A DNA stretch of 33,978 nt from Candidatus Zymogenus saltonus (lineage in GTDB: Bacteria; Desulfobacterota; Zymogenia; Zymogenales; Zymogenaceae), in NCBI GenBank assembly GCA_016929395.1, contig JAFGIX010000076.1:1-33978 (forward strand), given 5' to 3'. Position numbers and translations under genes: made by a program. Shown here piece by piece: positions 4,441 to 33,044 of the stretch; positions within the stretch are counted from its first letter, which is position 1, and each line of letters begins with the position of its first letter. The notes under the pieces were generated by a model, which saw only the letters and a program-made list of their open reading frames with translations, was not told the DNA's origin and made no database searches.

Positions 4441-5955
4441 TTGCCGAATAAGGAGAAAAGCGAGGTAAGGACGGAAAAGGCCGAGGAGGAGCTTGTCCGC
4501 GTAAGGCGCGAGAAGAGGGACGCGATCAGGGAGGCGGGGGAAAATCCCTACCCGAACGACTTCAGGCCCGAAAACTCGGCCAGTGAGATCATTGACAGCA
4601 TTGGGGGAAAGACGAAGGAGGAGCTCGAGGGAGCAAAGGACTCCTTTGTGCTTGCCGGGAGGCTCGTGTCGAAGCGGGACTTCGGCAAGGCCTCCTTCGC
4701 CCACATCCAGGACGCAACCGGAAAGATACAGCTCTTCTTCCAGAAGGACACGCTGGGCGAAGCCTTCAAGGCGATAAAGAGGTACGATATTGGAGACATT
4801 ATCGGTGTTACCGGCGCCCCCTTCAGGACGAAGACGGACGAGCTTACGATAGAGGTCGCAGAATCGAGGCTTCTGGTAAAGGGGTTGAGGCCGCTTCCCG
4901 AGAAGTGGCACGGGCTGACCGACGTCGAGACGAGGTACAGGCGTAGGTACGTCGACCTTCTGGTAAATCCAGAAGTCAGGGGGGTCTTCGAGACGAGGAG
5001 CAGGCTGATCAATGAAGTGAGATCTTTTTTCATGGAGAGGGGCTACATCGAGGTGGAGACCCCGATGCTCCATCAGGTCGTTGGGGGCGCCACGGCCGAG
5101 CCTTTCGTCACTCACCACAAGACCCTCCACATGGACCTCTACCTTCGCATCGCCCCGGAGCTGTATCTCAAGCGCCTACTCGTGGGGGGGATGGACAAGG
5201 TCTTTGAGATAAACAAGAATTTCAGGAACGAGGGGATATCCACCCAGCACAACCCGGAGTTCACGATGCTGGAGTTCTACGAGGCCTACGCCGCGTTCGA
5301 CGACATGATGAAGATGACAGAAGAGCTCTTCTGCGATGTGGCCGATGAAATCATCGGCAAAAAGGAGATAACCTACCAGGGACAAAAGATCGACCTGACA
5401 CCCCCCTGGGAGAGGGTGAGCGTCTTTGACGCAACGGTGAAGTACGGCGGTGTTGACGCCGCTGTGCTCAAGGACGAGGCGAAGATGAGAAAGCTCGCCT
5501 CCAATATCGGCATTGAGGTCGAAAAGAAGTGGGGGGCGGGAAAGCTCCTCTGCGAGATATTCGAGAAGACAGCGGAGGATAAGCTAACGGGCCCGGTCTT
5601 CATCACCGACTACCCGGCGGAGGTGTCGCCCCTCTCGCGCCCCTTCGACGACAATCCCGAGTTCGTGGAGCGGTTCGAGCTCTTTATATCGGGGATGGAG
5701 GTGGCCAACGGCTTTTCGGAGCTCAACGATCCGGATGACCAGAGGGAGAGGTTCAAGAGGCAGCTTGAGATGGGGGATTTCGGAAAGGGAATAAGGGAGT
5801 ACGACAAGGACTATATTATGGCCCTCGAATATGGAATGCCACCCGCCGGGGGGGAGGGGATCGGGATCGATCGGATGGCGATGCTCTTTACTGACTCACC
5901 CTCGATAAGGGATGTCATTCTATTCCCGCAGCTGAGGGAGAAGGAGGAAAAGTGA
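4441..5955 (+). CDS. lysS: Lysyl-tRNA synthetase, class II
   Basis: Cytoplasmic enzyme that charges tRNA-Lys. The N-terminal OB-fold anticodon-binding domain covers about residues 55-150, and the class II catalytic core the remainder. Motif 2 is visible as VFEINKNFRNEGISTQHNPE with the ATP-contacting Arg, and motif 3 as GEGIGIDRMAMLFTDS. The 504-residue length is normal. The start is TTG 4441: the Shine-Dalgarno AAGGAG (4429-4434) abuts the in-frame TTG at 4435 with no spacing but is 6 bases from TTG 4441. The stop overlaps the start of the Lol permease by 4 bases (GTGA), so translation is likely coupled. lysS next to lol genes is a known deltaproteobacterial order. Confidence 0.95.
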   Translation: MPNKEKSEVRTEKAEEELVRVRREKRDAIREAGENPYPNDFRPENSASEIIDSIGGKTKEELEGAKDSFVLAGRLVSKRDFGKASFAHIQDATGKIQLFFQKDTLGEAFKAIKRYDIGDIIGVTGAPFRTKTDELTIEVAESRLLVKGLRPLPEKWHGLTDVETRYRRRYVDLLVNPEVRGVFETRSRLINEVRSFFMERGYIEVETPMLHQVVGGATAEPFVTHHKTLHMDLYLRIAPELYLKRLLVGGMDKVFEINKNFRNEGISTQHNPEFTMLEFYEAYAAFDDMMKMTEELFCDVADEIIGKKEITYQGQKIDLTPPWERVSVFDATVKYGGVDAAVLKDEAKMRKLASNIGIEVEKKWGAGKLLCEIFEKTAEDKLTGPVFITDYPAEVSPLSRPFDDNPEFVERFELFISGMEVANGFSELNDPDDQRERFKRQLEMGDFGKGIREYDKDYIMALEYGMPPAGGEGIGIDRMAMLFTDSPSIRDVILFPQLREKEEK

Positions 5956-14939: not shown

Positions 14940-15932
14940 TTGGCAGAATGTAATAAAAAAGTCAGGGTCGGTGTTGTGGGGACGGGGTATCTCGGCACGT
15001 TTCATATCGAGAAGTACCTCTCCTTTGGCGACGTGGACCTGGTGGGGGTGTCGGATCTAAATCCGAGCGTGGCGAGGAAGATCGAAGAGAAGTTCGGTGT
15101 TTCCTGCCACGAAGATTATCGGGAGCTTATTGACAGGGTGGATGCGGTCAGCGTGGTAGTTCCCACAGTTCTCCACCACGACGTGGCGATGGACTTCTTG
15201 AACAGGGGAGTGGATGTCTTTGTGGAAAAGCCGATAACATCCGCCGTCAATGAGGCGGAGAGGTTGATCACCGCGGCGGACTCAAAGGGTCTTATCCTGC
15301 AGGTAGGCCATCTGGAGAGGTTCAACCCGGCGATCATCGCCCTCGAGGGCCACCTCAAGGAGCCGATGTTTATCGAATCCCACAGGCTCTCCCCCTTCCC
15401 TGAGAGGAGCACCGACGTCGATGTCATCCTGGACCTCATGATCCACGACATAGATATTATCTTGAGCATGGTAAAATCGGAGATCGCCGCCATAGACGCG
15501 GTGGGCGTTCCTATAATTACATCCCACGTGGATATAGTAAACGCCCGGCTCAACTTCGAGAACGGGTGCGTGGCCAACGTCACGGCAAGCCGCGTAAGTG
15601 TCGATAAGATGAGAAAGATCCGCATATTTCAGTCGGACGCCTACATATCTATAGACTACGCGGCCCAGAAGATTACGGTTTATAAGAGGATCAACGACGC
15701 CAAAAACGGCCTTTCTATCGTAAAGGAGGATATAGACATCTCCCCCAGCGATTATCTGGGCGATGAGATAAGATCGTTCATAAATTCGGTAAAGACGAGG
15801 AGTCAGCCCTCGGTTACGGGCGTTGACGGGAAGAGGGCCCTCGAAGTCGCCATGATGATAAAGGAGAAGCTTCAAGCGTCTCTTAAAAAGCTCAGGGAGA
15901 TGGGGATCATAACGGATGACGTCACCGCCTGA
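14940..15932 (+). CDS. Gfo/Idh/MocA-family oxidoreductase, GnnA-like by context
   Basis: A 330-residue NAD(P)-dependent oxidoreductase. The Rossmann motif VGVVGTGYLGTFHIEKY is at the N-terminus, VDVFVEKPITS carries the conserved EKP Lys, and the second domain has GHLERFNPAI and the LMIHDIDI segment with His/Asp. The start is TTG 14940, with GGAG 3 bases upstream and no better start nearby. Between lpxA and lpxB, the family is known either as GnnA (oxidises UDP-GlcNAc at C3 so that GnnB can aminate it, giving amide-linked lipid A chains) or as an uncharacterised conserved member of deltaproteobacterial lpx clusters. GnnB is not in this window, so the GnnA role is only a possibility. Overlaps lpxB by 17 bases. 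Confidence 0.83.
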   Translation: MAECNKKVRVGVVGTGYLGTFHIEKYLSFGDVDLVGVSDLNPSVARKIEEKFGVSCHEDYRELIDRVDAVSVVVPTVLHHDVAMDFLNRGVDVFVEKPITSAVNEAERLITAADSKGLILQVGHLERFNPAIIALEGHLKEPMFIESHRLSPFPERSTDVDVILDLMIHDIDIILSMVKSEIAAIDAVGVPIITSHVDIVNARLNFENGCVANVTASRVSVDKMRKIRIFQSDAYISIDYAAQKITVYKRINDAKNGLSIVKEDIDISPSDYLGDEIRSFINSVKTRSQPSVTGVDGKRALEVAMMIKEKLQASLKKLREMGIITDDVTA

Positions 15933-17124
15933 TAAGCTTGATGGGAAATACGGTATCGATGAGATAAAGGCCCATGTTGCAAAAAAGCGGGTGCTCATCG
16001 TGGCGGGGGAGGCCTCCGGCGACCAGTACGGCGCCGAGCTAATGAGGGAGGTGGCGGCGCTATCCCCAGACACACTCTTCTTCGGCGTCGGCGGGAGCAA
16101 GATGAGGGATGCGGGGCTCCTGGCCCTCGTAAGGTCGGAGGAGATCACCGTGGTCGGCCTCGTCGAGGTCGTGAAACACCTCAAGACGATAAAGGGCGCC
16201 CTGGATCTTCTGAAGGAGTCGATGAGGGCCCTGAAGCCCGACCTTATAGTATTGATCGACTTTCCGGACTTCAACTTCAGGGTCGCCGATGCGGCGGTCA
16301 AGCTGGGGAAAGATGGGGGGAAGATGCCGATTTTTTATTATATAAGCCCCCAGGTCTGGGCCTGGAGGCGGGGCAGGGTAAAGACGATCGCCCGATTTGC
16401 CGACAAGATGGTGGTCATCTTCCCATTCGAGGTCAATATCTACAGGGAGGCAGGGGTCGACGTGGAGTTTCTGGGCCATCCCCTGATGGATGTTGTGGCA
16501 GGGGTAGAGAGGAGGCTAAAGGGGGGTGGAGACGCGAAGGTCGGAGGAGGAAAGCCTAACGTGGCGCTCCTTCCGGGGAGCAGGAGAAGCGAGATAGAGA
16601 GGCACCTTTCGCACCTTCTTGGGGCGTCTGAGATAATCAAGAGGAAATACCCGGACGCGTCCTTCACAATCCCTCTCGCCCCGACCCTTGAGATGGAGGA
16701 TGTTGCCCCTTATCTTGAAGACACGTCGCTTAACGTTGCCGTCGTGAAGGACTCGTTTCACAGGGTTGTCAGGGGGGCCGATATCGCCATCGTCAGCTCC
16801 GGCACGGCCACCATCGAGACGGCGCTCATGGGAACGCCGATGGTCGTTGTCTATAGACTGAACTACCTCACCTACATGATCGCGAGGCTCCTTGTCAGGG
16901 TGGACTACATCGCGATGGTGAATCTGGTGGCGAAAAAGCGGGTCGTTCCCGAGCTGATACAATCCGATGTAAACGCCGAAAATATCGCGCGGCACGTCAT
17001 TTCTATTTTGTCGGACGATGCCGTAATGAAGAGGATGAGGGAAGACCTGTCGGAGGTGAGAAGGAGGATAGGAAAGCCCGGAGCCTCGGCGCGCGTCGCC
17101 GAGAGGATCATGAATTTTCTTTGA
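15916..17124 (+). CDS. lpxB: Lipid A disaccharide synthase LpxB
   Basis: Condenses UDP-diacylglucosamine with lipid X to give the beta-1,6 disaccharide; a peripheral inner-membrane GT19 enzyme. 402 residues. Motifs seen: VAGEASGDQYGAELM, FGVGGSKMRDAG, the IDFPDFNFRVA loop, YYISPQVWAWRRGRVK, LLPGSRRSEIERHL and SSGTATIETALMGTPMVVVYR. The ATG at 15916 lies inside the end of the oxidoreductase gene. The N-terminus has about 20 residues before the first strand (KRVLIVAGEASGD), slightly longer than usual. Three bases separate its stop from the next GTG start. Confidence 0.95.
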   Translation: MTSPPDKLDGKYGIDEIKAHVAKKRVLIVAGEASGDQYGAELMREVAALSPDTLFFGVGGSKMRDAGLLALVRSEEITVVGLVEVVKHLKTIKGALDLLKESMRALKPDLIVLIDFPDFNFRVADAAVKLGKDGGKMPIFYYISPQVWAWRRGRVKTIARFADKMVVIFPFEVNIYREAGVDVEFLGHPLMDVVAGVERRLKGGGDAKVGGGKPNVALLPGSRRSEIERHLSHLLGASEIIKRKYPDASFTIPLAPTLEMEDVAPYLEDTSLNVAVVKDSFHRVVRGADIAIVSSGTATIETALMGTPMVVVYRLNYLTYMIARLLVRVDYIAMVNLVAKKRVVPELIQSDVNAENIARHVISILSDDAVMKRMREDLSEVRRRIGKPGASARVAERIMNFL

Positions 17125-18295: not shown

Positions 18296-19945
18296 ATGGC
18301 CGATGTTTTCAGTAAAAATTTGACCGAGGACGAGAGATACAAGAGGTACACGATCATCCTGATCTCTCTGGCGACCCTCTACCACCTGATTATCATCGGG
18401 ATTATCGGCCTGGGCGACAACGAGGCCTACTACTGGACCTGGTCTAAGCACCTCGACCTCAGCTACTTCGACCACCCACCCATGGTGGCGTATATAATCG
18501 CCCTTACGACGAAATTGGGGGGCGACACCCCCTTTTTCGTCAGGATAGGGAACACGATGCTGTTTTTGATAACGACGATCCTCGTCTATCTTTTGACCGT
18601 CGACATCTTCAAGAGCAGGAGGGCCGGCTTCTACTCGGTCGTCCTCACAAATATCCTCCCGTTATATTATATAGTGGGACTGATAATCGTCCCGGACGGC
18701 CCCCTGGCAACCCTCTGGATTCTGTTCCTCTACTTACTATATAAAACAATGAAGATGGACGGCGAATCCGGAGGGGGCAAAGTCAAGTTCTGGTTCTGGT
18801 ACGTCATGGGGGTCGTGGCGGGACTCGCGCTCCTCTCCAAATATTTTGCGATCCTCCTCCTCCCGACCACCTTTATATTCCTCTCATCGGACAAGAGGGT
18901 AAGGGGGTATCTCAAGAGCCCCCACCTCTACCTGGCGATCCTGATCGCCGCCGTGATCGCAAGTCCGATCCTCTTCTGGAACATGGAGCACGGCTACCCC
19001 AGCATGACCTTTCACATCAAGACGAGGCACGGGGGCGAGGGATTCGAGTGGGAAAACCTGGGGAAGATGGTGGGGGGGCAGTTCGTGATGACTCCGATCC
19101 TCCTCTACTTTCTCCTTGCATCCCTCTACGTTGCCGTCAAGCGCGGCTTTTGGGGCAATAAAGATATAAACTACAAGTTTATCGCATTGACCTCCATCCC
19201 CACGCTTTTGTTTTTCTACGTCGTCATGTGCTTTACCGACGACGCAGAGCCGCACTGGCCGGCCCTCGGGTACGTCCCCCTGATCGTCGCGGCGTCCGGG
19301 CTCTACCCGGAGTACCTTAAAAGGTGGGGGAAGAAAAGACTCTACGACTTCAAGCTATTCAGGGCGGTCTCCGGGAGGGATGTGGACAGGGGGGGAATTT
19401 TAACCGCGATAAGGGGGTGGATGAAAGGGACTTCCACCTTTAAGGCGCTGGTGGCGGTCGGGGTAGCCTTTCCCATTATATTTATGGCCTTTTTTCACAT
19501 ACAGATGATATATCCCCTCTACAGGCCGGAGAAGTCCCACTACGACGTTACAAACGATCTTATGGGGTGGGACGCCGTGGCGCCCGTCGTAAGGGAGATA
19601 GAGGGCGATATGACGGTTAACGGCAAAAAACCCTTTGTCCTTGCCTATCACTACAACGTTGCGTCCCAGCTCGGATTCGCCCTGAAAGATCTTGAAAACG
19701 TGATCTGCCTCTCCAGCAAGAGGAAGATAAACCAGTTCAACTTCTGGCAGAATATGGACGATCTTGTGGGGAGGGACGCAATATACGTCGCAAACGATCA
19801 CTACAACGACCACCCCTGGGAGAGGTACGAGTTCGAGAGGATCGATAAAAAGCCGAAAACCGTTCTCTTTACAAGGAAGGGGGGATACCGCGCAAAGGAG
19901 ACTTATATTTATAAGTGCTACGGCTTTATCGGGACGAAGTATTGA
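18296..19945 (+). CDS. ArnT/PMT-like (GT39/GT83) membrane glycosyltransferase
   Basis: A 549-residue polytopic inner-membrane protein. The first periplasmic loop has the family signature GDNEAYYWTWSKHLDLSYFDHPPMVAY with the acidic D/E residues that act in catalysis in ArnT-type enzymes. About 9-11 hydrophobic helices follow to around residue 430, then a soluble C-terminal part (about 430-549). Such enzymes move a sugar from a polyprenyl-phosphate carrier onto lipid A, core or protein on the periplasmic side. A polyprenyl-phosphate sugar synthase is encoded two genes downstream and could make the donor. The sugar and acceptor cannot be read from the sequence. The position in an lpx/waa cluster argues for lipid A or core rather than protein. 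Confidence 0.85.
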   Translation: MADVFSKNLTEDERYKRYTIILISLATLYHLIIIGIIGLGDNEAYYWTWSKHLDLSYFDHPPMVAYIIALTTKLGGDTPFFVRIGNTMLFLITTILVYLLTVDIFKSRRAGFYSVVLTNILPLYYIVGLIIVPDGPLATLWILFLYLLYKTMKMDGESGGGKVKFWFWYVMGVVAGLALLSKYFAILLLPTTFIFLSSDKRVRGYLKSPHLYLAILIAAVIASPILFWNMEHGYPSMTFHIKTRHGGEGFEWENLGKMVGGQFVMTPILLYFLLASLYVAVKRGFWGNKDINYKFIALTSIPTLLFFYVVMCFTDDAEPHWPALGYVPLIVAASGLYPEYLKRWGKKRLYDFKLFRAVSGRDVDRGGILTAIRGWMKGTSTFKALVAVGVAFPIIFMAFFHIQMIYPLYRPEKSHYDVTNDLMGWDAVAPVVREIEGDMTVNGKKPFVLAYHYNVASQLGFALKDLENVICLSSKRKINQFNFWQNMDDLVGRDAIYVANDHYNDHPWERYEFERIDKKPKTVLFTRKGGYRAKETYIYKCYGFIGTKY

Positions 19946-19960
19946 GGCGGAATTTAATCG

Positions 19961-20536
19961 ATGGAATCGGTCTTTGATTTAAACAGGAGTCTCTTCCTCG
20001 CGATAAACGGGATGTATCATTCCGATCTCACCGATGCTTCGATGTTTGTCATCACCCAGTTCGGGGCGGGGCTTGCGACTGCCGCCCTGATTGGCGTTCC
20101 CCTCTTCTTCTACGACAAGGAGAATTTTCTAAGGCGGTTTTTCGTCATTGTGCTTGCCGTGTTGCTGGGGGGAGCCGTGGTGGAGATAATCAAGGACTGT
20201 ATTTCCTGTCCGAGGCCCGTTGTCGACCTGATGGGCCTTATCGCCACGGGCACGGTCAAGGTAAATCTCTTTATCGAGGACCCCAGGCACCTCTCCTTTC
20301 CCTCGGGGCACACTCAGCTCGCCTTTGGGGCGGCGGTCGCCCTAATCTGGTACCATAGGGGGTGGTATACGGCTCCCCTCTTTGTCCTCGCAGCCCTCGT
20401 GGGGTTCTCGAGGATATATCTCGGCGTCCACTTCCCGCTGGACGTAATCTGTGGGGCGCTGATAGGGATTATAATCTCGATCATCGTCTGCTGGGGTGTG
20501 GACAAGATAATCTCGAGGTTTTTCGTAGCCGGTTAA
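19961..20536 (+). CDS. PAP2-family membrane phosphatase, LpxE/LpxF-like
   Basis: A 191-residue integral membrane phosphatase with about five to six helices. All three PAP2 motifs are intact: KDCISCPRP (K78-x6-R85-P86), FPSGH (114-117) and SRIYLGVHFPLD (S150-R151...H157...D161). The two histidines form the catalytic pair, facing the periplasm in characterised LpxE/LpxF and undecaprenyl-PP phosphatases. Its location between a polyprenyl-phosphate-dependent transferase and a polyprenyl-phosphate sugar synthase, just before msbA, suggests removal of a lipid A phosphate. Undecaprenyl-pyrophosphate recycling is the main alternative. Confidence 0.88.
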   Translation: MESVFDLNRSLFLAINGMYHSDLTDASMFVITQFGAGLATAALIGVPLFFYDKENFLRRFFVIVLAVLLGGAVVEIIKDCISCPRPVVDLMGLIATGTVKVNLFIEDPRHLSFPSGHTQLAFGAAVALIWYHRGWYTAPLFVLAALVGFSRIYLGVHFPLDVICGALIGIIISIIVCWGVDKIISRFFVAG

Positions 20537-20571: not shown

Positions 20572-21291
20572 ATGAAGACAGCTATAATGATACCGACCTA
20601 CAACGAGGCGGAGAACATCGAGTCCCTTATCGATGAGGTGCTCTCGATAGCGGACGACATCGGGGTCGTTGTGGTGGACGATAATTCCCCGGACGGCACC
20701 GCCGAGGCGGTCAGAAACATGGGAGATCGCGACGGGAGGATCCACCTCTTGGTGAGGACGGGCCGGAGGGGTAGGGGAACCGCCGGGATAGAGGGATTTA
20801 AGTACGCTCTGGGTTTGGGCCCGGAGCTCTCCGCCGTCGGGGAGATGGACGCCGATTTCTCCCACGATCCGAAATATCTAAAAGATTTCTTGAAAGAGAT
20901 AAAAAAATATGATATTGTTATTGGTTCAAGGGCGGCTTTCGGCGGAGGCGAGGAGGGAAGGTCGCTTGTAAGGAGGGCGATCACCTCTTTTGCCGCTTTC
21001 TATATAAGAATGACCACCGGCATCGAGGTGGGGGATCCCACGTCCGGCTACAGGCTGTTTCGGCGGGAGGTCGTGGAGGCGATGGACCTCGACGGGATGA
21101 TCTCCACCGGGCCCTCGATAGTCCAGGAGATGCTGTATCGGGCGTTGAAGGCCGGCTTTACCTTTACCGAGGTTCCGATACTCTTTTCCGACCGGAGGGC
21201 CGGGGAGCCGAAGTTCAACTGGAAGATAGGGATCGAGAGCCTCATTATGATGCTGAAGTTCAGAGTGAGATATGGAAAATTAAAAAGGTGA
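20572..21291 (+). CDS. Polyprenyl-phosphate sugar synthase, DPM1-like (GT2)
   Basis: A 239-residue GT2 enzyme of the dolichol-phosphate-mannose synthase type. It begins IMIPTYNEAENIESLIDEV, carries VVVDDNSPDGTAEAV, GRRGRGTAGIEGFKYAL and the metal motif EMDADFSHDP, then DPTSGYRLFRREV and the ending FSDRRAGEPKFNWKIG. It has no C-terminal membrane domain, so it is the short, peripheral form. It loads mannose, glucose, aminosugar or similar from a nucleotide sugar onto undecaprenyl phosphate on the cytoplasmic face. The ArnT-like protein encoded at 18296-19945 is the obvious user. The donor sugar is not predictable from motifs alone. Confidence 0.87.
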   Translation: MKTAIMIPTYNEAENIESLIDEVLSIADDIGVVVVDDNSPDGTAEAVRNMGDRDGRIHLLVRTGRRGRGTAGIEGFKYALGLGPELSAVGEMDADFSHDPKYLKDFLKEIKKYDIVIGSRAAFGGGEEGRSLVRRAITSFAAFYIRMTTGIEVGDPTSGYRLFRREVVEAMDLDGMISTGPSIVQEMLYRALKAGFTFTEVPILFSDRRAGEPKFNWKIGIESLIMMLKFRVRYGKLKR

Positions 21292-21306: not shown

Positions 21307-23106
21307 ATGGGAAAGAAAAAGAGCAATACTAAACTGCCCCCTAAAAAAGAACTTATTGATGTTTATAAGAGGCTTATTAAGTATGTCAAGCCCTACTGGG
21401 GAAAGTTTTTTCCCGCCGTATTTTTTAACCTGGTTTTTGCCGGGACCACAGGAGCCCTCGTCAAGGTGGTGGAGCCCCTCATCAACAACCTGATTGAATC
21501 GAAAAATCTAAAGGGCCTTTTACTTCTCTCCATCGGGGTGGTCTTCATTAACTTTGTAAGGGGTTTTGCCAACTTCTTTGGCACCTATCTGATGCGGGCT
21601 GTCGGTCTGCACGTAATAAAGGACATCCAGGAGGAGTTGTACTCCCACATACAGGGTTTGTCGTTAAGGTTTTTTTCCGATCACCACACGGGCCTTCTGA
21701 CGTCGAGGATAAACAACGATGTGGGCTTGGTCAACGTGGCCGTCACCGACGCCGTCGAGGGGGGATTCAAGGAGCTGGTAACCATATTGGTCTTGATGGG
21801 AGTCGCTTTTTATCAGGACTGGCTTCTTGCCATTGTGGCCTTCGGAGTTTTCCCGTTGATGACCATTCCCATCACAAGGATATCCAGGAGCATGAGAAAG
21901 GTTTCGACAAGAGGACAGGAGAAAACAGCCGATATCACCACGATCCTTATGGAGACCTTTTCCGGCGTCAGGATAGTGAAGGCCTTCGGCATGGAGGATT
22001 ACGAGTCGGAGCGATTCAATAAGGAGAATACGAAGCTCTTCAAGACCTATTTGAAGAAGGCGCGGGTAAGGGCGATGACCGGCCCAATCATGGAGGTCAT
22101 CGGCACCTTTGGTTTTGCCCTCGTGCTCCTCTACGGCGGCTGGAAGGCGATGGGGATTGAGGGCTACATAGGCAAGTACGTCTCCTTTATTGCCGCCCTT
22201 ATGCTGATTTACCCCAGCGTCAGGGCTCTGTCGAGGCTGAATAACGGCATACAGGAGGCGATCGCAGCCTCCATAAGAATTTTTAATATATTGGATACGA
22301 AGCCGGATATAGTGGATGTCCCAGGAGCCATCGAGCTTCCCCCTGTAAAAAACGAAATAGAGTTCAAGAACGTATCCTTTTCATACGACAGCGTTCCTGT
22401 TCTCACCGACATCAACCTCAAAGTCAAGGTGGGGGAGGTGCTCGCCTTTGTCGGCATGAGCGGCGGCGGTAAGACGACGCTGGTCAATTTGATCCCCAGA
22501 TTCTACGACGTGACCGGAGGCAAGGTGCTCTTTGACGGCGTGGATATCAGGGACGTGAAGCTGAAATCGTTAAGATCGCAAATAGGGATCGTGACCCAGC
22601 AGACTATACTATTTTCCGATACCATAAGGAACAACATCGCCTACGGCAATATGGATACCTCCCAGGAAGAGATCGACAATGCCGCCAAGGCGGCCAACGC
22701 CTACAATTTCATAAAGCGGCTTCCCGAAGGATACGACACGATGATCGGGGAGGATGGGGCGAGGCTCTCCGGCGGTGAGCGCCAAAGGCTCTCCATCGCC
22801 AGGGCGCTTCTGAAAGACGCCCCTGTCTTGATCCTCGACGAGGCGACGTCGTCCCTCGATACAGAATCGGAGAAGGAGGTGCAGAAGGCCCTCGAAAACC
22901 TCATGAAGGGAAGAACCACCTTTGTCATCGCCCACAGGCTCTCCACAATACAGCATGCGGACAGGATCATGGTTGTGGTTGGCGGAAAGATAGTCGAGCA
23001 GGGAACCCACGATGAGCTTCTCGCTAAAGGCGGTGAATACAAGAAGCTTTACGATATGCAGTTTCAAGACAAGGAGGTTCCAACCGACGGAGTGGTTTTA
23101 GTTTGA
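21307..23106 (+). CDS. msbA: Lipid A export ABC transporter MsbA-like
   Basis: A 599-residue half-transporter that flips core-lipid A across the inner membrane as a homodimer. The membrane domain (about 1-330) has six helices and includes VYKRLIKYVKPYW at its start and SFFSDHHTGLLTSRINND-like coupling regions. The ATPase domain (about 350-599) has Walker A GMSGGGKTT (near 383-391), IGIVTQQTILFSDT, signature LSGGERQRLSIARALL, Walker B PVLILDEATSSLD and the H-loop IAHRLST. Its placement between the lipid A modification genes and waaA supports the MsbA role over a general multidrug exporter. Confidence 0.9.
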   Translation: MGKKKSNTKLPPKKELIDVYKRLIKYVKPYWGKFFPAVFFNLVFAGTTGALVKVVEPLINNLIESKNLKGLLLLSIGVVFINFVRGFANFFGTYLMRAVGLHVIKDIQEELYSHIQGLSLRFFSDHHTGLLTSRINNDVGLVNVAVTDAVEGGFKELVTILVLMGVAFYQDWLLAIVAFGVFPLMTIPITRISRSMRKVSTRGQEKTADITTILMETFSGVRIVKAFGMEDYESERFNKENTKLFKTYLKKARVRAMTGPIMEVIGTFGFALVLLYGGWKAMGIEGYIGKYVSFIAALMLIYPSVRALSRLNNGIQEAIAASIRIFNILDTKPDIVDVPGAIELPPVKNEIEFKNVSFSYDSVPVLTDINLKVKVGEVLAFVGMSGGGKTTLVNLIPRFYDVTGGKVLFDGVDIRDVKLKSLRSQIGIVTQQTILFSDTIRNNIAYGNMDTSQEEIDNAAKAANAYNFIKRLPEGYDTMIGEDGARLSGGERQRLSIARALLKDAPVLILDEATSSLDTESEKEVQKALENLMKGRTTFVIAHRLSTIQHADRIMVVVGGKIVEQGTHDELLAKGGEYKKLYDMQFQDKEVPTDGVVLV

Positions 23107-23257: not shown

Positions 23258-25129
23258 ATGGCAGACCGGCTCTACGGACTTGATCTCTCCATCTTCTATT
23301 TGATCAATCACGGCCTGAAGTCCCCCCTGCTGGACAAGGTCCTGCCCTATTTCTCTGATTTTGAAATCTTTGTAATACCGCTTGTAATCTTGGCGATATT
23401 CGCCTTGATAAAATGGAGGCTCAAGGCCCTTTGGGTAATGTTGATCTTAGGTGCGGCCATCGGCCTCACCGACACCATAAGCTTTTACGGGATAAAGAGC
23501 CTTGTGGCGAGGCCCAGGCCGTATCACGTCCTCGATAACGTCAACCTTCTGAAAGAGTGGGGTTACTCTTCGTCCTTTTCCTTCCCTTCGTCCCACTCCG
23601 CCAACAGCTTTGCAATAGCAACGGTTCTCGGTTGGTTCTATCCGAAGACGACCTTTATCCTGATCCCCGCGGCCCTCATGGTGGCGCTCTCCAGGGTCTA
23701 CGGGGGCGTTCACTATCCCTCGGACGTCCTGGGAGGAGCCGCCCTGGGCGTTTTGTGTGCCTCAGCAGCCCTTTTCGTTTCTGGAGCTCTGAAGGCAAAG
23801 TGGGAGGACTCTAAGGCCGTGGGAAGGGTGACGGGTGATGAAGGACACTTCGTCCTGTACAACCTGCTCGCGCCCCTGGCGCTCCTCTATTACATCCCAA
23901 GGCTCATGAAGGAAAAGGAGGGTAGGAGGGGATTCAGGGAGAGGTTTGGGCATATAAATATCCCCGCAGAGAGGCCGCTCTGGATACACGCCGCGTCCGT
24001 AGGGGAGGTCATGGTGGCAAGGGCACTGATCGAGTCTTTGAGGAGGAAGGTCCCCGACCTTCCGGTGCTCCTTACAGTGAACACGCCGGCGGGAAGACTC
24101 ACGGCCGAAAGGACCATCCCAGAAGCCTTCGTTTCATATTTCCCCTTCGATTTTCCCTGGATTGTAAGGCGCGCCCTTAAAAAGGTCTCGCCCGTGTTCG
24201 TTGTCTTGACCGAGGCGGAGATATGGCCGAACTTTATAAGGATTGCTAAAAAAAGGGGTATCCCCGTCGTCCTTGTAAACGGAAGGATGTCGGAGAGGAC
24301 CCACAGGCGGTTTACGATGATCGGCGCCTTTTCTTCGGGAGTCCTCGGTCGTCTTTCCGCCGTTGTCTCCCAGTCGGAGGGATACAGGGAGAGATATATC
24401 GATCTGGGGTGTCAGCCTGATAATGTCCACGTCTCCGGGAACGTCAAGTACGACATGCTCCCGGAGCATAAGGGGCCCAAAGGTGATCTCAAGGATTTCA
24501 TTTCAAGGATAGGCCGCAAGATTGTCCTCGCCGGCAGCACGCACCGGGGGGAGGAGGAGATCGTCCTCGACGCCGTAGCCGGACTTGGGGGAACAAATGA
24601 CCGCCCATTTTTAATCGTGGCGCCCCGCCACCTCAACAGGGTAGGTGAGGTGGAGGAGCTTTTAAAAAGCCGGGATTTAAGCTACATAAAGAGGACCGAG
24701 ATCGTGGACGGATCGAAAGGTTTAAAGGTATCTTCTAAAGACGGTCCGGACGTACTCCTCCTGGACACTATAGGGGAGCTGTCAAGCCTTATGGGGTCGG
24801 CCGATGTAGTTTTTATCGGCGGGAGCCTCATTAAGGGGATTGGGGGACACAATGTCCTTGAAGCGGCGGCGGTTAAAAAGGCGCCCCTCTTCGGGCCTCA
24901 CATGGGAAACTTCCCCGAGATATCGAGAGACCTGGTCGATGCGGAAGGGGGATTTGTGGTATCTTCCGCCGGTGAGATGGCTGAAATCGCGGGGCGAATG
25001 ATGGCGGATGCCGATTTTGCGTTAAGGTCGGGGGAAAGGGCCGCCTCTGTAATAGAGAGGAACAGGGGGGCGACCGAAAGGTGCATCGAACTTCTTATGC
25101 CGTTCATCAAAGGGTCGACCGAAAGATGA
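23258..25129 (+). CDS. waaA: PAP2 phosphatase - Kdo transferase (WaaA/KdtA) fusion
   Basis: One uninterrupted 623-residue frame with two enzymes. Residues 1-175 form a PAP2 membrane phosphatase with KSLVARPRP (K80-x6-R87-P88), FPSSH (a variant of PSGH, 109-113) and SRVYGGVHYPSD (S145...H152...D156). Residues about 197-623 form WaaA, which adds Kdo from CMP-Kdo to lipid IVA. They include the usual anchor helix (YNLLAPLALLYYIPRL), the catalytic-Glu motif AASVGEVMVA (E250), TEAEIWPNF, VNGRMSERT, APRHLNR and GGHNVLEAAA. An ordinary WaaA starts near residue 197, so a whole phosphatase has been added in front. The stop overlaps lpxK by 4 bases. A combined Kdo-transfer and dephosphorylation role is inference. 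Confidence 0.93.
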   Translation: MADRLYGLDLSIFYLINHGLKSPLLDKVLPYFSDFEIFVIPLVILAIFALIKWRLKALWVMLILGAAIGLTDTISFYGIKSLVARPRPYHVLDNVNLLKEWGYSSSFSFPSSHSANSFAIATVLGWFYPKTTFILIPAALMVALSRVYGGVHYPSDVLGGAALGVLCASAALFVSGALKAKWEDSKAVGRVTGDEGHFVLYNLLAPLALLYYIPRLMKEKEGRRGFRERFGHINIPAERPLWIHAASVGEVMVARALIESLRRKVPDLPVLLTVNTPAGRLTAERTIPEAFVSYFPFDFPWIVRRALKKVSPVFVVLTEAEIWPNFIRIAKKRGIPVVLVNGRMSERTHRRFTMIGAFSSGVLGRLSAVVSQSEGYRERYIDLGCQPDNVHVSGNVKYDMLPEHKGPKGDLKDFISRIGRKIVLAGSTHRGEEEIVLDAVAGLGGTNDRPFLIVAPRHLNRVGEVEELLKSRDLSYIKRTEIVDGSKGLKVSSKDGPDVLLLDTIGELSSLMGSADVVFIGGSLIKGIGGHNVLEAAAVKKAPLFGPHMGNFPEISRDLVDAEGGFVVSSAGEMAEIAGRMMADADFALRSGERAASVIERNRGATERCIELLMPFIKGSTER

Positions 25130-26301
25130 ATGGGGGTGGCAGGAATGAGGGCCGGACGGGTGGCCGGACATGGCTTTTCGGGCTCTTTGCGAAGATCCAC
25201 GAGAACCACAGATGGAGGCTTGTCGTAATATTTGCCCTATTTCCCCTCTTTCTCGTATCGCTTCTCTTCAGGCTCGTTGTTTGTATAAGGGTCTTTTTCT
25301 ACAGGGTCGGCCTTTTCAGGTCGGAGAGGCTCGGCGCCTATGTGATAAACGTAGGCAACCTCACCGCGGGCGGCGCGGGAAAGACCCCGGTCGTTATGCA
25401 TATTGCTGAGATGTTTAAGGGAGCCGGCATTAACACAGCAGTGATTTCGAGGGGATACGGTTTTAATGTCAAGGGTGATTACCTTGTGGTCTCGGATCGG
25501 GAGGGTGTAAAGCGCTCCCCTGGGAAGGCGCCGGACGAGGCGCTGATGACGGCCCGAAGGCTGACGGGTACAAATGCGGTTCCTGTTATAGTCGGGCCGG
25601 AGAGGACCCTCTCGGGGAGGGCCGCCGTGGATAAATACAATGCCGAGGTCGTCATCATGGACGATGGGTATCAGCACCTCAGGGTGAGGCGGGATATGAA
25701 CATCCTCGTCTTTGACGGGGAGAATCCCCTCGGGAACGGGCTGATGCTTCCAGTCGGACCCCTGAGGGAGCCCCTGAAGGCCTCAAAGAGGGCGGACGTC
25801 GTATGGATAAACGACAAGTCGGGAAGCGGGATTCCCGACACAAAGGGGCTTGAGGGGAAGCTTAAACGATACCTGGCGGGCGGAATTCCGGTCGTTAAAA
25901 GCACGCTTGTGCCGGAGTCTATTTTGGCTATCGAGGGAAATACGCATCCCGTTGAAATCATTAATAAAAAGAGGGTCTTGGCGTTTTCCGGCATCGCAAG
26001 GCCTGCCTCTTTTTTCAAGACCCTTGATAAGATAGGGGCTATAGTTGTTTGCGAGCTTCCGTTTCTGGATCACTATTTCTTCACGGAAGACGACTTCAAG
26101 GCGATAGAGAGGATGGCGTTTCTGTACAACGCCGAGATGCTGGTCACGACCGAGAAGGATATGGCGAGGATTTCGGCCGACAGGAAGTTCAGGCTCCCCA
26201 TCTTTGCCCTTGTAATGTCGCTTGCGGCGGATGGGGACAAGGCGGTTTTTGACATGGCGGTATCCGGACTCGGCTTGGATGGTGGATTTATAAAGAAATA
26301 G
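25126..26301 (+). CDS. lpxK: Tetraacyldisaccharide 4'-kinase LpxK
   Basis: Phosphorylates the 4' position of the lipid A disaccharide at the inner membrane. ATG 25126 overlaps the waaA stop (ATGA), giving 391 residues; an upstream GTG at 25081 inside waaA is less likely. A membrane helix lies at about 31-56. The P-loop follows as VGNLTAGGAGKTPVV, then VISRGYGF, the catalytic DDGYQHLRVRRDMNILVFDG and PVGPLREPL. The C-terminal domain has FSGIARPASFF and DHYFFTEDD. The N-terminus carries about 15 extra Gly/Arg-rich residues before the first conserved segment. Keeping LpxK beside two PAP2 phosphatases means phosphate could be added and later removed. Confidence 0.94.
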   Translation: MNGGGRNEGRTGGRTWLFGLFAKIHENHRWRLVVIFALFPLFLVSLLFRLVVCIRVFFYRVGLFRSERLGAYVINVGNLTAGGAGKTPVVMHIAEMFKGAGINTAVISRGYGFNVKGDYLVVSDREGVKRSPGKAPDEALMTARRLTGTNAVPVIVGPERTLSGRAAVDKYNAEVVIMDDGYQHLRVRRDMNILVFDGENPLGNGLMLPVGPLREPLKASKRADVVWINDKSGSGIPDTKGLEGKLKRYLAGGIPVVKSTLVPESILAIEGNTHPVEIINKKRVLAFSGIARPASFFKTLDKIGAIVVCELPFLDHYFFTEDDFKAIERMAFLYNAEMLVTTEKDMARISADRKFRLPIFALVMSLAADGDKAVFDMAVSGLGLDGGFIKK

Positions 26302-29907: not shown

Positions 29908-30840
29908 TCAAAATATTACTCTGTATGAATGTCGCTCACCCTTCACGCCGGAAAACAAACCGTGCATAACCCTGCTTACGCACCCCCTGATCTTCAGGAG
30001 GGGGGAGGATATTGTTTTTTTGACAAGCCTTCTGAGGTCCGCCTCGTCTCCTTTCGTGTAGCCGATAAGGATATGCCTGAAGTTTTCGTCCGTGGTGGAC
30101 AGCCCTAATCCCGCCAATTTTCTGGCGGAGCGCAGCAGGCGTCTCAGGTTTCTCTCCAGCATTCGTCGGGAGAGAAAATCGCAGACCTTAGCCCTGTCAA
30201 AATCGATGATGAATATCTCCCCCTCTCCGCTTTTGACGAGAAGGTTATTCATGTTAAGGTCTCTATGATATATTCCGGCGTCGTGCATTTTCCTTATCGC
30301 CGCGCCGGCCCGGTTGAGCACTACCGCTTTGGAGTTTAAGTTATCCTCTCTACCGAGAAATTCCGGGAGATTCACGCTGCCCGAAATCTCCGCGGTTGCG
30401 ATTGCGGCGGTGTAGAGGGGGGAGGGGATAAACAAAAACCGCCTTCTTTTCTCCGACGCCCCGATGGCGTTCGGCGCCGGAACACCCCTCGCCCTTGCCG
30501 TTGTGAGGGAGAAGAGCTCGCTCAAGGCGCGGTGCGGGACGAGGTATCCATCCTTTACGATCTTTCCAAACAGCCCCCCACGGCGGTAGCGTCTGACCAC
30601 CACACCCCCCACTCCAGAAATCTCCGTCTTAAAGGCGCTCCCCCTGCCCCCACCGAGGGGCACGGCCGGGCCTTCGGGGGTGGTTCCCTTGTCCGGTGAC
30701 AACACGCCCGACTTCAATAAGGGATCGATAAGTTCCCCCCTGAGATAGTAGCTCGTCCCCCCTTCCTTTACCTTCTTAAAGCCGTATGGGAGAAACGAGT
30801 CGGCCCTGACGCCGGTTCGGCCCTTTTCCTTTCTACTCAT
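29908..30840 (-). CDS. Lipopolysaccharide kinase, Kdo/WaaP family
   Basis: A 310-residue protein-kinase-fold enzyme. Visible are MHDAGIYHRDLNMNNLLV (catalytic D194 in HRDL, N199) and FIIDFDRAKV (metal D213), the pattern of KdkA/WaaP kinases that phosphorylate Kdo or heptose of the inner core. A basic segment (VVRRYRRGGLFGKIV, about 81-95) fits the substrate/ATP region of KdkA. Its C-terminus is very basic, as expected for membrane contact. The ATG has GAGGG 9 bases upstream and overlaps the end of alr by 8 bases. Located beside an LPS cluster, it probably decorates the inner core; KdkA versus WaaP cannot be settled here. Confidence 0.82.
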   Translation of the reverse strand: MSRKEKGRTGVRADSFLPYGFKKVKEGGTSYYLRGELIDPLLKSGVLSPDKGTTPEGPAVPLGGGRGSAFKTEISGVGGVVVRRYRRGGLFGKIVKDGYLVPHRALSELFSLTTARARGVPAPNAIGASEKRRRFLFIPSPLYTAAIATAEISGSVNLPEFLGREDNLNSKAVVLNRAGAAIRKMHDAGIYHRDLNMNNLLVKSGEGEIFIIDFDRAKVCDFLSRRMLERNLRRLLRSARKLAGLGLSTTDENFRHILIGYTKGDEADLRRLVKKTISSPLLKIRGCVSRVMHGLFSGVKGERHSYRVIF

Positions 30841-32012: not shown

Positions 32013-33044
32013 CTACTTCTTCGCCCCTAAATATTCGACAAGGTAGAGCCCATTGCTTTTTGTGCCAACCCAGAAGAGGGAGCCGGGGCCGGGTGCCAGG
32101 GCGGTGACCGATCCGTCAAATCCCGTAAGCCCGCATCTCGTAAGCGTCGTCAAATCCCCTACGAAGAGTCCCCCGTCCGCCGCTACGCAGAGCCTGCCGT
32201 TGTCTAATAGTATTTCGTTTATCTTCCCCGTGGGGCTTGAAGTCGTTATATTCCTTACCTCCCCTCCTTCACCCAATAAATATATCCCCGAGGACTCGGT
32301 GCCGATTAGGAGGCCGTCTTCGGTCGTAAGAAGGGCGGTGACATCCACCCCCGAAAGCCGATCGACCCAGCCGGTTACGCCGGAGATCTCCCCCCCTATG
32401 ATCTTGAGGCCCGATGCTCCCGACCCTTCCTCCCTCATCCCAAGGGCCAGGGTTCCGTCCCCCATTGATACGACCGTATTTATCGAAACGCCGGTCAATA
32501 TCTTCCTGTATTCGACATTCAAAGCACCTTTGAGTTCCGACTCTTCAATGTAGTAGAGGGAGCTGTCCGTTCCGATGTAGAGGGTTCTGTGCCGGGCGGA
32601 GAGCGCCGTGACCTCTTCCCTTGGGGACGTTAGCCTCTCCGCCGTCCAGAGGCCGCTCTCGGAAGAGACCCGATAAAGGAGGTTGTCCTCCAACTTCTCC
32701 CCGGCGGCGTAGGTCCAGAGGGTCTCGGTCGGGTCCCCCTCCTCCGTAGTTGAGTAATCCGCATTCAGGACTACCGCCGCCCTCCCCTGGAATATCGATA
32801 GGAAGACGTCGTCGACGTAGACGTGAAGGCCGCCTACCGAGGCGATAAAAAGCCCCCACCCCTTGCCGGAGGCCTCCGCCATGAGGCCGAAGATGTTGTT
32901 TGAGACAAGTCCCTTCTCCTCGTCGAAGTGGGTTATTACCTTAACCGCCTCGACCTCCTCTGCCGACGCCGTTGTTGAAAAAGCGATCGCCGATACGACG
33001 AGCACAGATAATAAAATTGCCGTGGAAATCTTGAATCTTCTCAC
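32013..33044 (-). CDS. Exported beta-propeller-like protein
   Basis: A 343-residue protein with GTG start at 33044. The signal peptide spans residues 1-28, with cleavage near ASA/EE and no lipobox Cys. The mature part is a series of short repeated strands with patterns such as TLYIGTDSSLYYI, GLLIGTESSGIYLLGE, RLCVAADGGLFVGDL and LFWVGTKSNGLYLVE. The repeat matches the 'l.iGt..gly' blades of two-component-regulator-type propellers, roughly one every 40-60 residues. It has no kinase or membrane part, so it is a free periplasmic or secreted propeller of unknown function. The gene lies 40 bases upstream of alr and may be co-transcribed with it. Confidence 0.75.
   Translation of the reverse strand: MRRFKISTAILLSVLVVSAIAFSTTASAEEVEAVKVITHFDEEKGLVSNNIFGLMAEASGKGWGLFIASVGGLHVYVDDVFLSIFQGRAAVVLNADYSTTEEGDPTETLWTYAAGEKLEDNLLYRVSSESGLWTAERLTSPREEVTALSARHRTLYIGTDSSLYYIEESELKGALNVEYRKILTGVSINTVVSMGDGTLALGMREEGSGASGLKIIGGEISGVTGWVDRLSGVDVTALLTTEDGLLIGTESSGIYLLGEGGEVRNITTSSPTGKINEILLDNGRLCVAADGGLFVGDLTTLTRCGLTGFDGSVTALAPGPGSLFWVGTKSNGLYLVEYLGAKK

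Follow-up and report, generated by a model that had tools for sequence, protein, structure and literature searches.

A PAP2 phosphatase–WaaA fusion gene in the lipid A operon of Candidatus Zymogenus saltonus

The lipid A 1-phosphatase LpxE of Aquifex aeolicus (LpxE_AA) is built of seven helices, with an N-terminal amphiphilic helix lying on the periplasmic surface and five transmembrane (TM) helices (PMC6581854). Its N-terminus and its active site are both periplasmic, and it shares only 14–17% of its sequence with other LpxEs (PMC6581854). The enzyme acts on Kdo2-lipid A and also hydrolyses C55-PP and PGP (PMC6581854). In the lipid A of Aquifex pyrophilus, GalA replaces both phosphates (PMC6581854). 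Mesorhizobium loti clusters lpxE with rgtF and rgtE and makes a lipid A with GalA at C-1, removal of the 1-phosphate preceding the addition of GalA (PMC5644692). The literature searched contained no report of a PAP2–WaaA pairing or of WaaA gene fusions.

The window analysed here, the whole stretch of 33,978 nucleotides from contig JAFGIX010000076.1 of Candidatus Zymogenus saltonus, contains a gene in which a PAP2 phosphatase and WaaA are joined (Table 1). Both are of known kinds; within the reach of the searches, it is their combination that is new. The frame (23258–25129, +) opens with ATG and runs through 623 codons with zero internal stops, and the junction is intact in two other assemblies, which bears out the single unbroken frame described in an earlier note on this DNA. 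Pfam places PAP2 (PF01569) at residues 62–172 (E 7e-23; 81.2 bits against a gathering score of 27.2) and Glycos_transf_N (PF04413) at residues 225–400 (E 2.5e-57; 193.8 bits against 23.9).

Table 1. Features of the fusion gene and of its neighbours, in window coordinates
Feature	Position	Strand	Basis
PAP2–WaaA fusion gene, 623 aa	23258..25129	+	one unbroken frame with PF01569 and PF04413 matches; kept in two further assemblies
PAP2 (LpxE-fold) domain, aa 1–187	23258..23818	+	AF2 model, fold match 6EBU
PAP2 motif 1, K80-SLVARP-R87-P88	23495..23521	+	sequence; K, R, P invariant in 9-sequence PAP2 alignment
PAP2 motif 2, P110-S-S-H113	23585..23596	+	sequence; P, S, H invariant in 9-sequence PAP2 alignment
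PAP2 motif 3, S145-R-VYGGV-H152-YPS-D156	23690..23725	+	sequence; S, R, H, D invariant in 9-sequence PAP2 alignment
Linker, aa 188–194	23819..23839	+	alignment of three fusions
Possible internal GTG start (codon 188), candidate, GGAGG 11 nt upstream	23819..23821	+	sequence
WaaA N-terminal membrane helix, aa 195–218	23840..23911	+	AF2; hydrophobicity
WaaA GT-B catalytic domains (GT30), aa 219–623	23912..25126	+	PF04413; Foldseek top match 2XCI
WaaA catalytic Glu250 codon (HAASVGE)	24005..24007	+	aligns with SIGE Glu of 2XCI; invariant in three fusions
lpxB	15916..17124	+	TIGR00215 298 bits, over cut-off
ArnT/RgtF-like GT83 glycosyltransferase (PMT_2)	18296..19945	+	PF13231 E 9e-31; ArnT model E 3e-14, far under cut-off
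Second, stand-alone PAP2 phosphatase (PSGH type)	19961..20536	+	PF01569 E 4e-24; 6EBU E 3e-17
Polyprenyl-phosphate glycosyltransferase (GT2, DPM1/ArnC/RgtE-like)	20572..21291	+	PF00535; PDB dolichol-P-mannose synthase 5e-25
msbA, lipid A flippase, directly upstream of fusion	21307..23106	+	TIGR02203 592 bits, just under cut-off 602
lpxK, 4'-kinase	25126..26301	+	PF02606 E 4e-84

The PAP2 half carries its motifs as K80-X6-R87-P88, PSSH (110–113) and S145-R146-X5-H152-X3-D156, in agreement with the pattern KX6RP – PSxH – SRX5HX3D, and the catalytic positions are all invariant in an alignment of nine PAP2 sequences. It is thus a complete PAP2 domain with PSSH for PSGH, as had been read earlier. 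The third residue of this motif, Ser here, varies in the clade, with PSSH, PSAH, PSCH, PSNH and PSTH among the relatives. PSSH as a sign of an inactivated PAP2 was considered and rejected, since such motifs are common among the relatives and K80, R87, R146, H152 and D156 are intact.

The WaaA half, which exceeds the PF04413 gathering score and has the GT-B fold of WaaA, carries its catalytic glutamate in an [SG]xGE motif, the Glu of SVGE250 aligning with that of SIGE in A. aeolicus WaaA (2XCI). With the anchor helix at 195–218 also kept, the description of this half as a complete WaaA stands. The NCBIfam WaaA equivalog cut-offs are not reached (324 bits against 524, 323.5 against 438 and 237 against 363), these models being specific to subfamilies or lineages and not defining for GT30. 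The fusion is the only PF04413 match in its own genome, which is rated 99.6% complete. This genome makes lipid A, with lpxA, lpxB, lpxD, lpxK and msbA within the window, and the fusion is its sole predicted Kdo transferase.

A whole-protein search of relatives recovered the same fusion, intact, from Ca. Zymogenus sp. CSMAG_2390 of the same genus (70% identity) and from Ca. Zymogenaceae Zod_maxbin.0311 of another genus of the family (49% identity). The fourth Ca. Zymogenaceae genome (G003) has an unfused WaaA, and its lipid A cluster is without PAP2, GT83 and GT2 genes. Among 395 genomes of the phylum, a search with PAP2 plus linker found no such WaaA fusion outside the three Ca. Zymogenaceae genomes (about 391 other Desulfobacterota). 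A scan of the GTDB genome collection with two short peptide patterns, which distant cases may escape, gave 18 other loci, none of them a PAP2–WaaA fusion. The fusion is not widespread; in the genomes searched, it is found only in Ca. Zymogenaceae. The question of a clade-wide fusion, raised in the earlier note, thus has a divided answer, as two genera of the family have it, but one of the four family genomes and all others searched do not.

The three fused proteins form a clade in the WaaA tree (99/95) beside the unfused G003 WaaA (100/99), which fits a single fusion event. The PAP2 tree agrees with a single fusion clade at weak support (43/85); its short, divergent sequences do not give the fusions a firm place. 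The two Zymogenus copies differ with a dN/dS of about 0.09 in the PAP2 half and 0.13 in the WaaA half; by this measure, both halves are under purifying selection. For the linker plus helix, dN is 0.19 and synonymous sites are saturated. All three fusions share Trp182 and the linker motif G-[RK]-[VI]-[TA]-G-D-x-G. Two further alignments, in which PAP2-only sequences had been aligned to the WaaA region, were set aside.

The closest unfused relatives of the PAP2 half, grouped as family f39 (G041 and G076), lie between a second ArnT-like gene and msbA of the same lipid A cluster, where waaA is a separate gene beyond msbA. This arrangement bears on the notion, hardly credible here, that an assembly or sequencing artefact joined two genes. 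All genomes concerned are metagenome-assembled, and the loss of a stop codon at overlapping genes could mimic a fusion. Such a case may be found in G096, where a PAP2 relative (L048:1-1296, −) reads through into LpxB; in its sister genomes G123 and G062, PAP2 and lpxB have an ATGA-type overlap or an adjacent stop and start, and the G096 frame is perhaps a recent fusion, or else the product of an indel error. In f39, however, the PAP2 gene is on the other side of msbA and not adjacent to waaA, so a point error cannot make the PAP2–WaaA join. The junction and linker motif are, moreover, common to three assemblies from two genera.

The linker also raises the possibility, which we consider quite improbable, that translation starting within the gene gives a free WaaA, in addition to or instead of the full-length fusion. 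In each of the three genes, a purine-rich stretch is followed by an in-frame start codon (GTG188, ATG185 and GTG183; linker codons 183–188), and the helix that follows is a normal WaaA N-terminus. However, the Shine–Dalgarno-like spacing is poor (11 nt in one fusion, 2 nt in another), the purine-rich stretch largely follows from the invariant Trp codon (TGG), and there is no stop or frameshift between the halves in the three genomes.

The AlphaFold2 model of the full chain has a mean pLDDT of 90.4 and a pTM of 0.78, and its top Foldseek match is A. aeolicus WaaA (2XCI, E 4e-20). Since GT-B folds dominate the full-chain Foldseek results, the PAP2 half was modelled separately (pLDDT 88.6, pTM 0.84). 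It has a PAP2 fold, with Foldseek matches to 6EBU and 5JKI. The best solved fold match is LpxE_AA (6EBU; E 8e-8, TM 0.76, 32% identity), which is also the best sequence match in the PDB (E 3e-16). The modelled helices comprise an amphipathic helix (2–19), a half helix (23–33) and TM helices at 36–52, 54–83, 112–127, 129–148 and 154–186. By analogy with LpxE_AA, the N-terminus and the active site of this half would be periplasmic, and five TM helices would follow. Because these five helices start from a periplasmic N-terminus, the C-terminus would be cytoplasmic, and no domain need be re-oriented if the WaaA helix does not cross the membrane.

The earlier note saw a topology puzzle in a periplasmic phosphatase joined to a cytoplasmic transferase and offered a re-oriented domain or a monotopic anchor as the way out. 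The puzzle is smaller than it was put, since a PAP2 domain of the LpxE type would hand the chain to WaaA on the cytoplasmic side; re-orientation would not be needed, but the WaaA helix must still not span. Helix 195–218 is hydrophobic enough to do so (Wimley–White octanol −10 to −20 kcal/mol over 19 residues).

Several other one-frame joins were seen in lipid A genes. DUF374, an LPLAT-like domain, which elsewhere in the phylum is usually encoded by a separate gene just upstream of waaA, is joined to WaaA as a single frame of 650 aa in two genomes that belong to one genus (L073:3695-5668, −, in G014; L024 in G051). MsbA and DUF374 share one frame at two loci (L080, frame at 4542; L091:217-2752), and a frame of 557 aa joins LpxK to a GmhB-like HAD phosphatase (L073:1820-3490, −, in G014). 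DUF374 resembles cytoplasmic acyltransferases, and the C-terminus of MsbA is cytoplasmic; therefore, the chain that enters the WaaA helix in the DUF374–WaaA proteins is most likely cytoplasmic. The DUF374 fusions and the helix plan of LpxE_AA favour a non-spanning, monotopic anchor for helix 195–218.

An inverted PAP2 half, with its active site in the cytoplasm, the WaaA helix crossing the membrane as a sixth TM segment and phosphate removal before export, is a far less probable arrangement. It would suit the length and hydrophobicity of the WaaA helix and the seven K/R within the 19 residues after it, as in a spanning N-out/C-in helix. However, LpxE_AA, with the same helix plan, is N-out with a periplasmic site; loop 51–59 of the PAP2 half, with three K/R and no acid, fits the cytoplasm; and, judging by the DUF374–WaaA and MsbA–DUF374 fusions, the WaaA helix can follow a domain on the cytoplasmic side.

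The operon reads lpxD, fabZ-like, lpxA, GnnA-like dehydrogenase, lpxB, GT9, ArnT-like GT83, PAP2, GT2, msbA, PAP2–WaaA, lpxK, gmhB and heptosyltransferase, and the likely ATG of lpxK overlaps the stop of the fusion (ATGA at 25126–25129). The Gfo/Idh/MocA dehydrogenase between lpxA and lpxB (14940–15932) has no gnnB-like aminotransferase beside it; its likeness to GnnA hints at a diamino-sugar lipid A. Just beyond the end of the LPS cluster, on the opposite strand, lies a Kdo/WaaP-family LPS kinase (29911–30840, −), and a 343-aa frame at 32016–33044 (−) has no Pfam match.

Beyond the fusions, 10 of the 27 further PAP2 relatives (three of these being f39 genes) adjoin lpxB, msbA, ArnT-like or heptose/core genes. 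Relatives lie beside lpxB in L040 and L047, beside ArnT-like genes in L036, L057, L061 and L093, and beside gmhB/heptosyltransferase genes in L055 and L060. In Nitrospirae HyVt-545 (L092:6962-8497), one frame holds both a PAP2 of this group and an ArnT-like GT83 (PAP2 + PMT_2). Two observations run against a lipid A role: no lipid A biosynthesis genes lie near the PAP2 relatives of families f10, f11 and f19, and Zod_maxbin.0311 has the fusion in a cluster without a GT83 gene.

Family models do not settle the substrate. None of the curated LpxE, SepP, YbjG and PgpB models reaches its cut-off on the fused PAP2, and with 32 bits against the 177 of the LpxE equivalog model PRK09597, it is not filed as LpxE. 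The second PAP2 of the operon matches 6EBU equally well (3e-17 against 3e-16 for the fused PAP2). An attempt to assign LpxE, LpxF or C55-PP phosphatase by family models or by similarity to 6EBU failed, since the scores did not separate the two PAP2 proteins of the operon. Relatives of the second PAP2 in G041 and G076 have PSGD for PSGH, as does A. aeolicus LpxE. Judged by sequence, the second PAP2 may be a 1-phosphatase and the fused PAP2 a 4'-phosphatase.

The PAP2 half could instead be a periplasmic C55-PP phosphatase that is merely tethered to WaaA, recycling the carrier for cell-wall or LPS sugars and leaving lipid A alone. This we regard as unlikely, although it is the alternative with the most in its favour. 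The best curated family matches are the undecaprenyl-diphosphatases SepP and YbjG, but the scores are far under the NCBIfam cut-offs (57.5 against 250 and 51.8 against 229 bits). With C55-PP, LpxE_AA itself shows 1.8 times its activity on Kdo2-lipid A (PMC6581854). However, BacA/UppP is present in the same genome, so the fused PAP2 need not be a C55-PP phosphatase, and lipid A genes are linked, or even fused, to several of the PAP2 relatives. Furthermore, GT83 enzymes take their sugars from monophosphate carriers, without release of C55-PP.

The set of PAP2, GT83 and GT2 genes matches the M. loti cluster, and GalA is known from the lipid A of A. pyrophilus; because of this, the PAP2 half probably removes a lipid A phosphate. 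The explanation that we prefer, with a probability of roughly 0.58, is a bifunctional, two-faced membrane enzyme in which a periplasmic lipid A phosphatase is tethered to a cytoplasmic Kdo transferase. WaaA, held on the membrane by a non-spanning helix, would work on the cytoplasmic face ahead of MsbA, taking Kdo from CMP-Kdo and adding it to the lipid A precursor, and MsbA would flip the lipid A across the inner membrane. On the periplasmic face, the PAP2 half would then remove a phosphate (at the 1- or 4'-position), and the neighbouring GT83/GT2 pair would place a sugar at the dephosphorylated position, in the manner of LpxE with RgtF/RgtE. The last TM helix of PAP2 would return the chain to the cytoplasm and to WaaA, and the fusion would fix both activities at 1:1 and in one place around the MsbA step. 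The stricter picture, in which one polypeptide with sites on both faces of the inner membrane brackets the MsbA flip, makes lipid A maturation and export one assembly and holds WaaA by a monotopic helix, is tentative and less likely than not.

The earlier idea that the fusion couples Kdo addition to phosphate removal survives in part. A link between Kdo addition and dephosphorylation is the most economical reading because the PAP2 relatives lie in lipid A/LPS clusters; simple channelling would be excluded, as the PAP2 and WaaA sites would face opposite sides of the membrane and be separated by the MsbA flip, so there would be no direct hand-over of substrate. Should both halves have the activities of their relatives, a single chain would connect a cytoplasmic with a periplasmic step of lipid A synthesis, which would suggest that WaaA, MsbA and lipid A phosphatases can act as a physical unit. 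How the WaaA helix is oriented in the membrane is disputed, and the fusion is a natural construct for settling it. The fusion also singles out, as candidate lipid A phosphatases, an uncharacterised group of PAP2 proteins whose genes are often linked to those of lipid A.

Among the known systems, LpxE of A. aeolicus (Aq_1706, 6EBU), a PAP2/LPT lipid A 1-phosphatase, shares with the fused PAP2 the seven-helix plan, the lack of an N-terminal TM helix and the KX6RP and SRX5HX3D motifs; it is, however, a stand-alone chain of 180 aa with PSGD, whereas the fused PAP2 has PSSH and WaaA attached. With WaaA/KdtA (GT30; 2XCI of A. aeolicus, 4BFC of A. baumannii), the second half has in common the full-length GT-B fold, the catalytic Glu, the N-terminal membrane helix, the lpxK neighbour and the sole copy, but here a 190-aa integral-membrane phosphatase precedes it. 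The lpxE–rgtF–rgtE cluster of M. loti likewise brings PAP2, GT83 and GT2 gene types together with the lipid A pathway; there, the genes are separate, WaaA is not fused, and the sugar added is GalA. The DUF374–WaaA proteins of G014 and G051 and the MsbA–DUF374 frames of L080 and L091 are alike in that an upstream neighbour is joined ahead of the same helix; DUF374, however, is LPLAT-like and probably a cytoplasmic acyltransferase domain, not a membrane phosphatase.
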